Made by a program: the position numbers and the translations under genes | Shown: positions 4,026 through 11,034 of the stretch, one piece after another | Layout: each line of letters opens with the position of its first letter | Numbering within the stretch: the stretch's first letter is position 1 | Notes under the pieces: model-generated | The model's input: the letters and a program-made list of their open reading frames with translations, nothing else | What the model was told of the DNA's origin: nothing | Databases searched by the model: none | Assembly: GCA_024640585.1 (NCBI GenBank) | Contig: JAHEEQ010000093.1 | Location: 1 to 11,034 of the forward strand | DNA from: Micrococcales bacterium | GTDB lineage: Bacteria > Actinomycetota > Actinomycetes > S36-B12 > UBA5976 | Length of the DNA stretch: 11,034 nucleotides | Direction of reading: 5' to 3'

Positions 4026-4652
4026 ATGACTCGTAACCCAATTCGAGCCCTTTCGATGGCGACTGTCTCAGTTCTACTAGCGGCATTTCTTTCAACGACC
4101 CTGACTCCAGCGTTCGCAGAAGATGTCACTACTGATCCAACCGTTGTAGTCGATGATCCAAATACCCCGGTTGATGAATCAACTGAAGAACCAACCGACG
4201 AAACCCAAACCGGAACTCCAGTCGAAGTTCTGATGAACATGGGTGCTCCGGACATGAAAGTTTTCAAGACTTTGACCAAGAAGGCGATTGCAACAGCTCG
4301 CAATCTGGCACCAAAGCAAAGCAAGAGCTTCCACAAAACCCCTGCATACGCAAAGTGGTACGCAAAACTCCACATTAAAGAGCGTTATGGCTGGAGCAAG
4401 AAGCAATTCGGCTACCTTGCAAAACTATGGGGCAAAGAATCTGCTTGGAAGTTCCGTTCAACTGGCTACCGCAACTACTACTTGGGAATTCCGCAGTTGA
4501 ACAAAAAAGCCATCTTGGCCAACGGTTACAGCATCAAGCAGTTCCGCAAGAGCCCAGAAGTGCAGGTTCAACTCGGTGCGAAGTACATCAAAGTCCGCTA
4601 CGGCACACCAAAGCACGCGTGGAAACACTTCCTGCGCCACGCTTGGTACTAA
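4026..4652 (+). CDS. Secreted transglycosylase SLT-like protein
   Basis: A 208-residue exported protein. Residues 1-31 form a Sec signal peptide: basic start TRNPIR, hydrophobic core ATVSVLLAAFL, and probable cleavage after AFA at Ala31. Residues 32-66 are an acidic Asp/Glu/Thr/Pro-rich linker. From about 100 on the protein is very basic and ends in a lysozyme-like transglycosylase fold of the actinobacterial short type: LAKLWGKESAW with the expected catalytic Glu138, LGIPQL (153-158), YIKVRYGTPKHAWKHF (187-202) and terminal WY. It should bind and cleave peptidoglycan glycan strands outside the membrane. Compared with relatives, the usual N-x-S-G-A-x-G stretch before GIPQ is replaced by GYRNYYLGIPQ. 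The fold call is sound but activity is less certain. The upstream ATG (4026) is preferred over the internal ATG at codon 11 because it supplies the positively charged signal-peptide start. No Shine-Dalgarno is seen. Confidence 0.82.
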   Translation: MTRNPIRALSMATVSVLLAAFLSTTLTPAFAEDVTTDPTVVVDDPNTPVDESTEEPTDETQTGTPVEVLMNMGAPDMKVFKTLTKKAIATARNLAPKQSKSFHKTPAYAKWYAKLHIKERYGWSKKQFGYLAKLWGKESAWKFRSTGYRNYYLGIPQLNKKAILANGYSIKQFRKSPEVQVQLGAKYIKVRYGTPKHAWKHFLRHAWY

Positions 4653-6796: not shown

Positions 6797-8092
6797 GTGA
6801 AACTATTCAAAGCCAAGAATGCCGCAAAGCTGAAGGATGCAGCTCGTGCGGTGGAATTGCCAGCATCGCAAATTGCTTGGCCGATTCCACTTGCTGCATT
6901 AATCGCAACCTCTTGGGCTTGGGTAATCACAATCTTTGCATCAGTAGTTGTTTCATCACTCGTTTGGATCACAACCGCAGACTCAACTACCGATTATGCG
7001 AACTCGATTTACACCTCATTTGCATTAGTTCTGCTTGCCCACTCAATTCCTGTTGTTGCAGGCGGACTTTCTTTCTCGATTCCGCCACTCGTCATTACGG
7101 GCCTATTGATTTGGTTGATCAAAAGATCTACTCAATGGGCAGTTCGATCCACACTTATTACCAATCTAGCAGGAGTTCTCGTACTAATCGCCAGCTTCAT
7201 GGTTAGTTATGCAACTCTTGCTTTAGCCGTGTCAGCAATTGCATCTCCAGTCGCGGATTTCAATGCAAGTCGAGTCTTAATTCACGCAGGTCTTTGGGCG
7301 CTGGTTGGAAGCCTTTGGGGAATCTTGCGTTCGCCTGGCGAAATCGGTCCGGCAGAAAAACGTAATTACAAAAACGCGGGGGAGCGCACTAACTTCAACG
7401 TCAAACCGCAATCTCCACACGCTTTAGTAATTGACCTTTGGCACTCAACCCCAAGTGCATTTCGCCTTGGTTTTGCATTTGCAACTCGCGCATTGTTTCT
7501 GCAACTTATTTTTGCATTCATCTTTGCCGCAGTAATTTTTGTGTTTGCGCTGAATGATATGTACGACATTGTTTCGCTCGTCGCAACAGACACTTTCTCC
7601 ACCATCATCTTGATTTTGTCATTAGTCCTTTACGTTCCAAACATCATCATTTGGTATTTCGCAATTCTCACCGGCCCAGGAGTGGTTATCGGTGGAGGAA
7701 GCGCTGTCACATTAATTACCCAAGCAGTCGGCGCACTTCCGACACTTCCGATGTTTACAGTTATTCCGCATTCACTTCCATGGCTCACTCGCATCCTGAT
7801 TGTGTTGCCAGTACTTAGTTCATTCCTAGTCGCGTCCACTTTTGGTCGCAAACAATTCGGTTATAAAACTGTGCCCAACTCAGTTGCCGTTTCAATAGCA
7901 ATCTATGCAGGTTTCGTCTCTGCATTCTTTGCATTCATCCTCAGTGCCCAAGCCTCCGGTGCTTTCGGAGCCGGCAGATTCCTCGAGGTCGGCATCAATC
8001 TCTGGCAGATCTCTCTTTGGGCCTTTGCCTGGGGGTTCATTGGGACGTTGGTTGGTCTTACTGTCTTTCAAAAAGTCAGGATTCGCAAATAG
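6797..8092 (+). CDS. DUF6350 / PerM-like polytopic membrane protein
   Basis: A 431-residue integral membrane protein with about ten hydrophobic segments, roughly at 29-58, 72-92, 94-108, 121-149, 163-177, 230-251, 267-292, 331-348, 363-385 and 402-424. The N-terminal 28 residues are basic and a hydrophilic loop lies at about 178-222. Segment LTGPGVVIGGGSAVT (291-305) is the kind of Gly-rich motif seen in DUF6350. Identity rests mostly on position: in actinobacteria sucC-sucD is commonly followed by a DUF6350 gene, the counterpart of M. tuberculosis PerM (Rv0955), which is linked to cell division and persistence. The GTG start lies 10 nt after the sucD stop with no Shine-Dalgarno, so translation probably depends on re-initiation after sucD. 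Its usual downstream partners purN and purH are not in this window; a low-GC gene block follows instead. Confidence 0.75.
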   Translation: MKLFKAKNAAKLKDAARAVELPASQIAWPIPLAALIATSWAWVITIFASVVVSSLVWITTADSTTDYANSIYTSFALVLLAHSIPVVAGGLSFSIPPLVITGLLIWLIKRSTQWAVRSTLITNLAGVLVLIASFMVSYATLALAVSAIASPVADFNASRVLIHAGLWALVGSLWGILRSPGEIGPAEKRNYKNAGERTNFNVKPQSPHALVIDLWHSTPSAFRLGFAFATRALFLQLIFAFIFAAVIFVFALNDMYDIVSLVATDTFSTIILILSLVLYVPNIIIWYFAILTGPGVVIGGGSAVTLITQAVGALPTLPMFTVIPHSLPWLTRILIVLPVLSSFLVASTFGRKQFGYKTVPNSVAVSIAIYAGFVSAFFAFILSAQASGAFGAGRFLEVGINLWQISLWAFAWGFIGTLVGLTVFQKVRIRK

Positions 8093-8094
8093 CC

Positions 8095-8116
8095 TAGGCT
8101 TATGAACTGGGGGAGG
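8095..8116 (+). promoter_or_regulatory. Candidate promoter and strong Shine-Dalgarno of the accessory operon
   Basis: TAGGCT (8095-8100) fits the TANNNT -10 pattern and is the right half of a perfect 10-bp palindrome AGCCTAGGCT (8091-8100) that overlaps the DUF6350 stop codon. A start of transcription near 8107 would give a leader of about 14 nt. That leader would contain the purine-rich ribosome site GGGAGG (8111-8116), 4 nt before the ATG at 8121. No clear -35 is visible. This suggests that the accessory genes can be expressed separately from sucCD. Confidence 0.45.
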
Positions 8117-8120
8117 GAAA

Positions 8121-9263
8121 ATGACAGATAATCCGAGGGGCTTCGTTTTTAGAGACCTGCCCCGTGACGGAGGATTTGGAGATACGAATCCAGAACAGCA
8201 TGTGACCACCTTCAAATGTGATCACTGTGGAGCAACTTTCGATAATATGGATGCATTGGTTTTGCATATAAATCAAGGGCACATTGAGCTTCGCCCCAGA
8301 CTATTCTTCCAAAATGTTGAACGACATGAGTTGCCATTCCAAATCCTCGAAACACCTTCAGTGGATTCATGGCGATTTGAAAATTTCGAAACAATTTACC
8401 TTAATGGAAAACTAGTTCAAGAATCAGAGCTAAAAGAGTTTTTCACACGACAATTCGAAGGAAGATTTGAAGTTAAGCTTGCAAACAAGAATATTCAGAA
8501 TAAATTTGATTTGGAATTTCTAGTTCCATTGAGTTCTGAACTCAAACAAGTAGATGGTATTTTGCAAAACACTTTCCCTGATGATGACTGGGCGCTAAGT
8601 AAATCGTCAATTGACAATTTTCGTGAACGTGCAGAATCTTTAACGACCGCACAGACTTACGTCTCAGGAATATGCGAATACCTTCGAGGTGTATTCGAAC
8701 GTGAGAATCGCGCAGATCCTGGAGCACATCAATTAGAACTGGATCCTGATCGTCGATACAACAAAGCGTTAGAAAGACTTAAGAATTACATCGGTGGGAG
8801 CGCAAATAGGAGTGAACTTGCGGAAGTGTTTTCCGCTATCATTTATCTTGAATTCAACCTTTTCGACGCAGCGAGTAATTTAACATTAAGCCCAAGGTAT
8901 TCTGCCCTTGCACTCAGATTTCAGAGCATACTTAATGGCGGATCGCCAGCACCTTCGATCCCTTCACCGCATCCCCTCGAGGAAAAGTTTCTAGATTCAT
9001 TTACAGCTGAGAAGCTTCAACTTTGTTGCATACTTATAGACGGTACTTCACAAGAAGAAATTCTTAGAATCGGACACCTTCTTGATGATCCAAAATGCAC
9101 AAGTAGAGATAAATTGAAATTGCATCTTGTAGCTTATTCGTACCACCTAAACAACTTAAATGTAGAGTCAGCGGCTAAGCATCTAAAATCACTTGAGCAA
9201 AGCACTCAATTTTACGAATGGGCAAAACAAACTAGAGAAAGTATTCAGAGTGGCGACAGATAG
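8121..9263 (+). CDS. C2H2 zinc-finger protein with helical C-terminal region, unknown function
   Basis: A 380-residue protein with no recognised full-length family. Near the N-terminus one classical C2H2 zinc finger is clear: Cys33-x2-Cys36-x12-His49-x4-His54, with the hydrophobic core Phe40 and Leu46 of the usual fold. Single fingers of this kind in bacteria usually bind DNA, RNA or protein. Residues 80-140 look like mixed strand and helix. Residues 155-270 are mostly amphipathic helices (for example AQTYVSGICEYLRGVFERE at 177-195), then comes a Pro/Ser-rich break (273-286). A second helical block (290-376) resembles an alpha-solenoid or TPR-like stack. No signal peptide or membrane segment is seen, so it should be cytoplasmic. 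The ATG is fixed by GGGAGG four bases upstream. It heads the low-GC block, and the next gene overlaps its end. A recognition or adaptor role for the Hsp70 encoded downstream is inference only. Confidence 0.75.
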   Translation: MTDNPRGFVFRDLPRDGGFGDTNPEQHVTTFKCDHCGATFDNMDALVLHINQGHIELRPRLFFQNVERHELPFQILETPSVDSWRFENFETIYLNGKLVQESELKEFFTRQFEGRFEVKLANKNIQNKFDLEFLVPLSSELKQVDGILQNTFPDDDWALSKSSIDNFRERAESLTTAQTYVSGICEYLRGVFERENRADPGAHQLELDPDRRYNKALERLKNYIGGSANRSELAEVFSAIIYLEFNLFDAASNLTLSPRYSALALRFQSILNGGSPAPSIPSPHPLEEKFLDSFTAEKLQLCCILIDGTSQEEILRIGHLLDDPKCTSRDKLKLHLVAYSYHLNNLNVESAAKHLKSLEQSTQFYEWAKQTRESIQSGDR

Positions 9264-10383
9264 AGAAGTCCTTCCAATTAGTGAAGTGAAAATCGAAGTA
9301 GACAATTCGAAAGAAGACCCGCTAGTTATTGAACAAATAAATATCAAGCAAGTTACGTCTACAGCTAAAACCAAACCCAAGAAAACGACTGAATCAAGTT
9401 TTGACGACTTGCCCAAATTCCTTGAATACTTGATACAAAATCCAAAACAGCATTCTAAGTTATCTGTTGCGAAATTTATAAAGGAAAAAGAAATAACTGA
9501 TATCGGTTTTACAATTGATCATCCGATGTTTAAAGAAATGTGGAAGACTGACAAATCTTTGGCTTTCCCTGTGGCTCTCTTAAAGGATATTACATTATCT
9601 GGAAGCGTAACTCCTGCTAAGAATCAAGTTTCTACATTGGCTGAAGACTTAATCTTATTTCACCCGTTATTCAAATACGTAGAAATAACAAGCTTAACCT
9701 CGTTAGAAAGTTCAATGCTTGAAACTGCATTAAAAGCTCTCTCTTTTCAGGATTTGGAATATAAACAACTATCTGAGATGACAACTGGCTTCAAGAAAAA
9801 TTTGAAAAAAAATATTTTAATATCAATCCTGTTGCTCAATTCCTATAGAGGTGTTTGGACTCTACGGGAAGTTGTCGATAAAACTGGAGATTTTCTCTGG
9901 GGTAAATCGGATATTTCTCCAGAAGAACTTATTTTGTCGAAAGACGTAAGAGCGCTTGGTGCGGTATATAGGAGTTTCCACGTCGATCTAGAAAGACAAA
10001 ACCTAATTAATGTACGTTTAAATCGAGAAAATGCTGAATTGAAGGTTGCATTAGAACTTCAAGAAAGTAAAATCCGAAAAGCAGATAATTCTATTTCGAC
10101 ACTTTCGGAAGAGTTAGAACTCAAACTTCAAGAAATTAATGGATTGATAGCTACGCATAAAGCCGAGGAAACCATCCTTCTCGATAGATTGCTGTCGCAA
10201 AAAATGGATTCAATAACAATTCTTGGTGAAACCAGAATATGGTTGGAAAATTTAGAAAGGGATTTGAATAGCGCTCTGCATGCATCCAAGAAAGGAAAGA
10301 ATGAATATGCGGAAGACTTTATTGATAATAACTTAAAGAAATTGTCAGAATTTATCGCAAAACTTAAATTACGGGAGGAGTAG
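9250..10383 (+). CDS. Lysine-rich coiled-coil protein of unknown function
   Basis: A protein of 377 residues from the GTG at 9250, not matched to any family I recognise. The first 60 residues are polar and Lys/Thr-rich (AKTKPKKTTESS), probably a flexible linker. Residues about 50-240 are predicted mostly helical with hydrophobic patches (KKNILISILLLNSY near 183-196), too short and interrupted for a clear membrane segment. Residues about 254-316 show heptad-like spacing of Leu/Ile (LERQNLINVRLNRENAEL and on), a likely coiled coil. The C-terminus (320-377) is another charged helical region. The GTG start overlaps the zinc-finger gene by 14 bases; a TTG at 9193 is also possible but would overlap by 71. 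The Hsp70 gene follows 4 bases after its stop, and the Shine-Dalgarno for that gene lies inside its last codons. A co-chaperone-like partner of the Hsp70 is a plausible guess. Confidence 0.7.
   Translation: MATDREVLPISEVKIEVDNSKEDPLVIEQINIKQVTSTAKTKPKKTTESSFDDLPKFLEYLIQNPKQHSKLSVAKFIKEKEITDIGFTIDHPMFKEMWKTDKSLAFPVALLKDITLSGSVTPAKNQVSTLAEDLILFHPLFKYVEITSLTSLESSMLETALKALSFQDLEYKQLSEMTTGFKKNLKKNILISILLLNSYRGVWTLREVVDKTGDFLWGKSDISPEELILSKDVRALGAVYRSFHVDLERQNLINVRLNRENAELKVALELQESKIRKADNSISTLSEELELKLQEINGLIATHKAEETILLDRLLSQKMDSITILGETRIWLENLERDLNSALHASKKGKNEYAEDFIDNNLKKLSEFIAKLKLREE
10373..10380 (+). promoter_or_regulatory. Shine-Dalgarno of the Hsp70-like gene
   Basis: GGGAGGAG lies within the last codons of the coiled-coil gene, 7 nt before the ATG at 10388. 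It fixes the start of the Hsp70-like gene and couples the two genes in one transcript. Confidence 0.8.
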
Positions 10384-10387
10384 ATAA

Positions 10388-11034
10388 ATGATTTTTGGGT
10401 TTGACTTTGGAACAACAAATACATTCGTCGCTTATGCTCAGGCAAAAAATCGAGATGGAAATCAAACGGTCATTACGTTTGGAGATGACATAAACAAACC
10501 AATTCCATCTGTTGTTACCTTTATAGGTGACAAGGAAGTTATTGGTGCTGAAGCTAAAGCAAATCTGGATGGAGCTGGACTTGGAGTATTTGAAAATACT
10601 GTGCGGTCTCCGAAGTCGATGCTTGGAAAAGCTAGCGTATCAATAGGTGGAATCGATCGCGATCCAATTGATATTGCTAAATCGGTCATTGAATACGCAA
10701 AGAATAAGGCAAATGCAAGAGCTTCCGAGATTAACATGGACGTTAAGCAGGTTGTTGCAACAATTCCAATTTCAATGGACGGTCGAAAGCGCAAGAAGTT
10801 GCGAGATGCATTTGATCGGGCTGGACTTGAGGTAGTCCAGTACATCCACGAACCGTTTGCAGCTCTATATGGATATTTCCGCAATCATCCTGAGATGGAA
10901 AGTGAGGTTAGGCGACTAAATCAAAGATATGTCTTAGTGGTGGACTGGGGTGGAGGTACGCTTGATTTGACCTTGTGTTATGTAGAAAATGGCGAAATTT
11001 TTCAGATTGAAAATTCGGGAAGCGATGTTGAATA
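10388..11034 (+). CDS. Divergent Hsp70 (DnaK-like) ATPase, N-terminal part (partial)
   Basis: The frame stays open to the right edge and gives the first 215 residues of an Hsp70/actin-fold ATPase. Phosphate-1 loop: FGFDFGTTNTFVAY with Asp6 and Thr9-Thr10. The catalytic lysine of DnaK (Lys70) corresponds to Lys76 in SPKSMLGK. TIPISMDGRKRKKLRDAF and GLEVVQYIHEPFAALYGY (146-163) match the DnaK block around the INEPTAAA motif. Phosphate-2: VLVVDWGGGTLDLTL with Asp186 and Thr191, where the usual DLGGGT is DWGGGT. Spacing of the motifs is close to DnaK, so the nucleotide site should be functional. It is not the housekeeping dnaK: the neighbours are not grpE and dnaJ, the sequence is divergent, and it sits in a low-GC block. 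Hsp70 relatives outside the dnaK operon occur with unknown partners in variable genome regions. The substrate-binding domain, if present, lies beyond the window. Confidence 0.88.
   Translation, partial: MIFGFDFGTTNTFVAYAQAKNRDGNQTVITFGDDINKPIPSVVTFIGDKEVIGAEAKANLDGAGLGVFENTVRSPKSMLGKASVSIGGIDRDPIDIAKSVIEYAKNKANARASEINMDVKQVVATIPISMDGRKRKKLRDAFDRAGLEVVQYIHEPFAALYGYFRNHPEMESEVRRLNQRYVLVVDWGGGTLDLTLCYVENGEIFQIENSGSDVE

Follow-up and report, generated by a model that had tools for sequence, protein, structure and literature searches.

Gene content of the locus

The window analysed here is an 11,034-nucleotide stretch of DNA from a Micrococcales bacterium (assembly GCA_024640585.1, contig JAHEEQ010000093.1), read on the forward strand. 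Its right-hand end carries three same-strand genes, termed A, B and C, that encode a C2H2 zinc-finger protein, a helical protein and an Hsp70. The analysis confirmed them as genuine genes that form one unit, and the gene set that they represent is rare and horizontally transferred. The set recurs among anti-virus genes, and once inside a known anti-phage operon, which makes an as yet undescribed role in bacterial immunity probable.

Gene A (8121-9263, + strand) encodes a protein of 380 amino acids (aa) composed of a C2H2 zinc finger, a beta-rich domain and a helical half resembling tetratricopeptide repeats (TPR). Gene B (9250-10383, + strand) is an open reading frame (ORF) with a GTG start that encodes a helical protein of 377 aa. 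Gene C (10388-11034, + strand) is cut by the window end and encodes the N-terminal part of an Hsp70, of which 215 aa are visible and recognised by Pfam HSP70; the contig stops 215 codons into this gene and thus before the usual site of a fourth gene, D, described below. Genes A and B overlap by 14 bases and a gap of 4 bases separates gene B from the Hsp70 gene, as given in the preliminary description of this DNA. Strong ribosome sites had been claimed for all three genes: clear Shine-Dalgarno-like sequences were read directly before gene A (GGGGAGGG, 8110-8117, + strand) and before the Hsp70 gene (GGGAGGAG, 10373-10380, + strand, within the end of gene B), but none of note was seen by eye before the GTG of gene B.

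The low G+C content first reported for the three genes is real, but it had been overstated: the values are 41, 35 and 42% for genes A, B and C versus 45-49% in six core genes, and in 500-base windows they are 35-43% from position 8251 on versus 42-51% before it. The distance in synonymous codon use was 0.17 for genes A and B, inside the 0.09-0.20 range of the six core genes, and 0.24 for the Hsp70 gene. Codon use was dropped as proof of acquisition for genes A and B, since their distance falls within the core-gene range.

Protein features

The C2H2 finger of gene A lies at 8211-8282 (+ strand) and was identified by Pfam, by profile and by ligand pattern, with the ligands C33, C36, H49 and H54 in place. 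The Pfam zf-C2H2 match has an E-value of 5e-4, though this is under the cut-off of that family. A profile built from 11 A sequences matched solved zinc fingers (best E-value 5.7e-12, to a multi-finger protein; next 1.7e-5), and the ligand pattern is kept in 16/16 A proteins compared. The parts of A outside the helical half were barely probed by the structural match lists.

The B protein of the window is 23% identical to a plasmid-encoded relative (E-value 3e-9), and a possible coiled coil near residues 255-305 and a conserved C-terminal helix were recognised. The heptad score was equalled or exceeded in 8 of 100 shuffles of the window protein and in 0 of 100 shuffles of a relative (locus L012). 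The proposal that B acts as a nucleotide-exchange-like partner of the Hsp70 is unsupported rather than refuted: comparison with GrpE, for which only four sequences were available to the profile, gave an hhalign probability of 0.2%, and B was dropped as a GrpE-like factor for want of profile similarity.

The identification of gene C as an Hsp70 was upheld (Pfam HSP70, E-value 7e-20, 71 bits against a cut-off of 20.6), and the 215 visible residues are 47% identical to a plasmid-encoded member of the family. Actinobacterial relatives are 588-603 aa in length. The phosphate motifs GFDFGTTN and DWGGGTLD are present in 17/17 sequences compared, the window included, and GGMxxMP is present in all 16 complete sequences. 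Complete members carry a C-terminal Cys-rich (Cys4) tail, which lies beyond the reach of the cut window gene. The family aligns with DnaK through the nucleotide-binding domain (NBD) and the beta substrate domain, to residue 482 in three alignments, and in the plasmid Hsp70 the Pfam match likewise stops at residue 482 of 589. We infer that these proteins are without a recognised DnaK lid, and only infer it because a few DnaK matches extend to 512-537.

Relatives, gene order and transfer

Relatives were assembled from 16 actinobacterial chromosomal loci, two conjugative plasmids and three contigs from IMG/VR (L105, L106 and L109), which are at most putatively viral. In all 21 of these relatives, whose surroundings were examined, A, B and C are adjacent in the same order; B was unrecognisable by profile in one of them, and A is split by an insertion sequence (IS) in both plasmids. 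Since relatives keep the gene order, mostly with 4-base overlaps, the grouping of A, B and Hsp70 is not due to chance.

Protein searches with A and with B among 5.8 billion sequences, by a method that needs shared 5-residue words, matched the window alone. A tblastn search of plasmids with A returned two conjugative Paenarthrobacter plasmids (L001 and L002), and the idea of an oddity confined to the window was dropped on finding these relatives. On each plasmid the split gene A precedes the genes for B, for a 589-aa Hsp70 and for a 446-aa D protein. In both plasmids A is interrupted by an IS3 element with the same transposase accession, and in L002 such an element splits D as well; the module may therefore be inactive there. 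A genome scan with an alignment of the Hsp70 alone returned 14 loci, of which one (L016, an uncultured Bacilli metagenome-assembled genome) holds a generic Hsp70; the 13 belonging to this Hsp70 family all have A and B immediately upstream. The trio thus co-occurs in unrelated genomes. The preliminary description would have counted a consistent lack of the two other genes beside the Hsp70 as grounds to reject its proposal, and no such lack is seen. Searches with the A profile added three further loci, all with the order A-B-C-D. Hosts include Streptomyces, Arthrobacter, Micromonospora, Sphaerisporangium, Nocardioides and one Mycobacterium species. The A profile was present in 2 of 396 Actinomycetota genomes (both among the loci already found), in 4 of 392 genomes of the genus of genome G004 and in 4 of 295 genomes of the family of genome G001, each count including its starting genome. 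The preliminary reading of a three-gene unit that is undescribed and was probably acquired is borne out.

The genes are tightly packed. The 4-base start/stop overlap is found at the A-B junction in 12 of 13 loci and at the B-C junction in 13 of 13, and D starts 1-9 bases past the Hsp70 gene in 12/12 loci; alignment was used to choose the starts. The correlation between the pairwise identities of the four proteins is 0.93-0.99, a figure inflated by related rows, and on this ground the four genes are taken to travel together. Between the Nocardioides copy and a Streptomyces copy the identities are 94% for Hsp70, 86% for A, 82% for D and 71% for B, compared with 74% for the SucD proteins of the two hosts; this indicates transfer between orders. 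The window copy sits on a long branch; the A tree groups it with the actinobacterial set (support 96/95), and the Hsp70 tree leaves its placement open.

Carriage as phage cargo was considered and dropped. The first scans of IMG/VR with the Hsp70 and with D matched nothing. Phage records gave 23 Hsp70 matches of less than 30% identity among the matches listed and no match to D. The IMG/VR contigs came from a scan with A (two contigs) and a broader scan with the Hsp70 (the third); a broader scan with A added no more.

The usual fourth gene

Gene D follows the Hsp70 gene in 17 of 18 actinobacterial copies (16 chromosomal and two plasmid-borne, the copy in L002 being the IS-split one). Its C-terminal domain (residues about 350-450) has a predicted RelE/HigB-like (BECR) fold of the RelE/ParE superfamily, and the protein is large, with N-terminal domains and a long coiled coil added to the RelE-like part. 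A search with D returned 136 protein clusters; of the 120 listed, all that name an organism are actinobacterial. Most of these carry the label hypothetical protein, and source labels include two of phage shock protein A and one of regulator of replication initiation timing.

A toxin-antitoxin or addiction module under chaperone control would fit the predicted fold of D and the plasmid location of two copies. In such a module the Hsp70, A and B would restrain D, and loss or titration of the Hsp70 would free it, as in toxin-antitoxin-chaperone modules of the SecB type. Links between RelE-family toxins and chaperones are on record in the available portions of two sources: higBAC (PMC11980606), and the greater toxicity that DnaK confers on GraT, a member of the HigBA family (PMC7918210). 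The trio occurs without D in 4 of 21 relatives, no antitoxin-like protein was recognised in the module and D lacks a RelE sequence signature, and an addiction module is accordingly regarded as improbable.

Defence neighbourhood

Neighbouring ORFs of at least 150 aa were listed for 16 loci (159 ORFs), and 198 control ORFs were listed from 18 segments. From each list 101 ORFs, chosen by hand, were scanned against PADLOC models; the neighbours came from 15 loci (near-duplicate L009 left out, nearest ORFs kept, largest dropped) and the controls from 13 of the 18 segments. At 1e-10 the neighbours matched 249 models and the controls, from nine of the host genomes, matched 29, and PD-T4-6 made up 17 of 25 models among the control matches listed. 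The A, B and Hsp70 (215 aa) proteins of the window matched 0 PADLOC families at E-values up to 1.

The neighbours include type I restriction-modification (RM) proteins, two of the HsdM type and two of the HsdS type, with an HsdS in the Arthrobacter locus L003. In Micromonospora (L006, 12556-21556) a DISARM-like set consists of DrmA, an MZB protein and a NERD/helicase protein; this set adjoins the single chromosomal copy that is without D. At L028 HmaC is adjacent on one side and a ResIII/PLD/DUF3427 protein lies on the other. On the two plasmids the neighbours are a pair of DUF262 genes and a set of methyltransferase, helicase and GIY-YIG genes. Helicases near L012 (MkoA-like) and L014 (UvrD) provide weaker evidence. 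The preliminary description had called a defence role possible but unsupported beyond the setting; with RM, DISARM, Hma and DUF262 neighbours and the BREX and McrBC copies described next, such a role is better supported than was supposed there.

In three Streptomyces loci two large genes lie after the module (L008, 13368-17776; L009, 13006-17774; L015, 13375-17783). Those of L008, from Streptomyces cyaneofuscatus, encode a protein of 584 aa that matched no PADLOC model at 1e-20 and one of 885 aa that matched no Pfam family at 1e-5. In Sphaerisporangium (genome G003, contig C77, locus L094) a second, divergent GrpE-like gene was observed, with a stronger GrpE match on another contig; the former is possibly part of another accessory Hsp70 set.

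Contig L105 (G+C 53%) holds the trio inside a BREX (bacteriophage exclusion) operon, in the order two 189-aa ORFs (the first cut by the locus end), a BrxC relative (E-value 3e-16 to solved BrxC), a PglX-type methyltransferase, A, B, Hsp70, PglZ and BrxL (E-value 8e-157). Only 2 bases lie between the end of pglX and the start of A, and the Hsp70 gene and pglZ share 4 bases; with junctions this tight the trio looks translationally coupled inside the operon. A related BREX set on Runella plasmid pSP2_1 (L117, 4479-8004) has genes for an AAA ATPase and a restriction endonuclease in the slot before pglZ; downstream of brxL are genes whose annotation is virulence factor SrfB and SrfC. On contig L109 (G+C 58%) mcrB (E-value 2e-71) and mcrC (E-value 6e-24) end 166 bases upstream of A, and a 340-aa ORF stands in the place of B, followed by an Hsp70 with a Cys-rich end. 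This ORF had no match by the B profile; its short matches were to the B proteins of L105 (E-value 0.001) and the window (E-value 0.008). On contig L106 the trio is present with no D and no identified partner.

Another possibility is that the set is a dedicated chaperone for the assembly or solubility of nearby BREX, McrBC, DISARM and type I RM machines rather than a defence system of its own, with D as a targeting or ribosome-docking subunit and not a toxin. The insertion inside BREX with its 4-base overlap to pglZ, the varying partners, the dispensability of D and the alignment of the Hsp70 with DnaK through its nucleotide-binding and beta substrate domains would all fit. No partner was seen to recur across the loci, however, and about half of them lack an identified large defence machine; a RelE-like fold would be unusual for a plain co-chaperone, and neither a GrpE nor a J-domain was matched in the module proteins scanned. 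A dedicated chaperone is on balance considered unlikely.

Hsp70 families are usually proteostasis factors, and Cys tails can sense redox state or zinc. On that footing the set could be an acquired stress or proteostasis operon that serves general fitness and has no link to phages, but its rarity, its transfer, the recurring defence neighbours and the BREX insertion make this very improbable.

Chromosomal site of the window

In the window, the module is flanked upstream by a DUF6350 gene (6797-8092, + strand; Pfam DUF6350, E-value 6e-46) that lies outside it, on the chromosomal side, and is separated from gene A by 28 bases in the ORF list. The preliminary description took DUF6350 to be commonly followed by purN-purH in actinobacteria, and genomes of the phylum make this setting plausible; the window itself stops before any purN could show. 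Stretches of 12.5 kb starting at sucD were compared across 12 genomes of the phylum Actinomycetota: 5 contained purH, with Pfam confirming all five ORFs, and 4 had a match to DUF6350; purN was confirmed in one ORF, and gene A and a module-type Hsp70 were found in 0 of the 12 stretches. Among 396 sampled Actinomycetota genomes the best match to the window SucD has 79% identity, and on SucD and DUF6350 the lineage is placed no lower than the phylum. Elsewhere in the window (4026-4652), a 208-aa ORF between a phoH-like gene and sucC has a secretion-signal-like start, and its C-terminal part by eye resembles a lytic transglycosylase.

Interpretation

The set is very probably a genuine mobile unit with a defence setting, and the setting itself is well supported; an anti-phage function is likely. 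With somewhat better than an even chance, we read it as a horizontally moving, tightly coupled defence module in which an Hsp70 cycle, informed by A, switches a partner. By co-occurrence the core is the trio, with A as a zinc-finger/beta/TPR-like adaptor, B as a coiled-coil protein and C as the Hsp70. A may sense or tether an infection signal through its finger and bind the Hsp70 through its TPR-like half, B may hold the parts of the module together, and the ATP cycle of the Hsp70 would alter the state of the complex and so release or remodel a partner. In Actinobacteria the partner would be D, with a predicted RelE/HigB-like fold on a coiled-coil stalk, and the outcome a ribosome-directed, RelE-like stop of translation; in copies without D it would be the surrounding or adjacent BREX or McrBC machinery. 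This switch model is the simplest reading that covers all the settings. The anatomy, co-occurrence, close packing, mobility and defence surroundings of the set are established; sensing, gating, effector activity and an anti-phage outcome are what the model proposes. Gating of an effector in this manner is proposed tentatively. Of similarly doubtful standing is a wider claim, that of a new Hsp70-motor immunity class in which a sensor of the C2H2/TPR type and a coiled-coil scaffold join an Hsp70 without a lid and with a Cys4 tail to make a portable switch, plugged into a RelE-fold ribosome-targeting effector in Actinobacteria, into BREX in one lineage and into McrBC in another.

Several observations weigh against the switch model. 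The defence reading draws on sequence and predicted structure. Defence genes could be named for only about half of the loci, and when 10 large neighbours were scanned one by one, 6 of them matched no PADLOC model at 1e-20. PADLOC models are redundant and are not protein counts (one HsdS matches 85), and some, such as mad2, match in both the neighbour and control sets. The 16 loci do not count as 16 independent cases, several of the Streptomyces copies being nearly identical. In the window no promoter was found before gene A, and its B protein averages only 20% identity to other B proteins. Helical repeats can by chance resemble TPR as closely as A does, and the tail of the L109 Hsp70, although Cys-rich, departs from the tail pattern. 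D is absent from the Micromonospora locus and from 3/3 IMG/VR copies and so cannot be the only effector; the IMG/VR copies make the trio the core and D an actinobacterial addition. Foldseek E-values for D are weak (best 5e-3), and attempts to prove D a RelE by sequence failed, as none of 15 D members matched a BECR Pfam family at E-values up to 5 and D matched no RelE in the PDB at E-values up to 10. Catalysis by D is for this reason put forward as a candidate activity on the predicted fold.

If the switch model holds, a mobile Hsp70 would be an ATP-driven chaperone used as an immune switch, and three protein families currently without annotation would be explained. The operons named here are directly testable against phages.

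Comparison with known systems

No description of the gene set was found in the full-text literature searched, a weak absence as subscription literature lies mostly outside that body, and the terms Hsp70, DnaK and chaperone are absent from the text of PMC12839542. In L105 the trio fills the pglX-pglZ slot of BREX type 1, yet it is not a core part of BREX. With canonical DnaK the module Hsp70 shares the NBD and beta substrate domain, but it has the Cys4 tail and falls far below the DnaK cut-off (NCBIfam prok_dnaK equivalog; 142.9 versus 822.55 bits for the L012 relative). D shares its predicted fold with the RelE/ParE (BECR-fold) superfamily, with no sequence match in Pfam or the PDB.

The systems that follow are compared as they appear in the available portions of the cited sources. 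GTPase-centred conflict systems (PMC7159879) employ Hsp70 as an accessory and many are actinobacterial; they have a GTPase and GrpE, whereas among the module proteins no GTPase, tubulin or GrpE was recognised. In toxin-antitoxin-chaperone modules (higBAC, PMC11980606; CmdTAC, PMC11618068) a chaperone is encoded together with a toxin. The higBAC toxin is of the RelE/HigB kind and is triggered by a phage protein, HigB being activated by a phage tail protein; its chaperone is SecB-like whereas that of the module is an Hsp70, and the module has no recognised antitoxin and a large D with a coiled coil. The activation of HigB is a precedent for the switch, as are the link between DnaK and GraT noted above and phage sensing by bNACHT25, which is mediated by DnaJ, with DnaK (PMC12169576).

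Of the described systems found, type III of the CoCoNuT (coiled-coil nuclease tandem) systems (PMC11090510) comes closest in using Hsp70-like domains for defence. The module is without the CnuB GTPase and CnuH helicase of these systems, and McrB, a criterion for CoCoNuTs, had no match among the module proteins scanned; the McrB beside the trio in L109 has NxxD (MNIAD), whereas the hallmark of CoCoNuTs is NxD. The phosphate motifs of the module Hsp70 are intact in all 17 sequences, in contrast to CnuD, which the source describes as degenerate and as a possible RNA binder. Like the module, CoCoNuT type III, through CnuD, combines an Hsp70-like NBD and substrate-binding domain with coiled coils and McrBC-type partners, and related CoCoNuT helicases contain a RelE-like RTL domain, comparable to the predicted fold of D.

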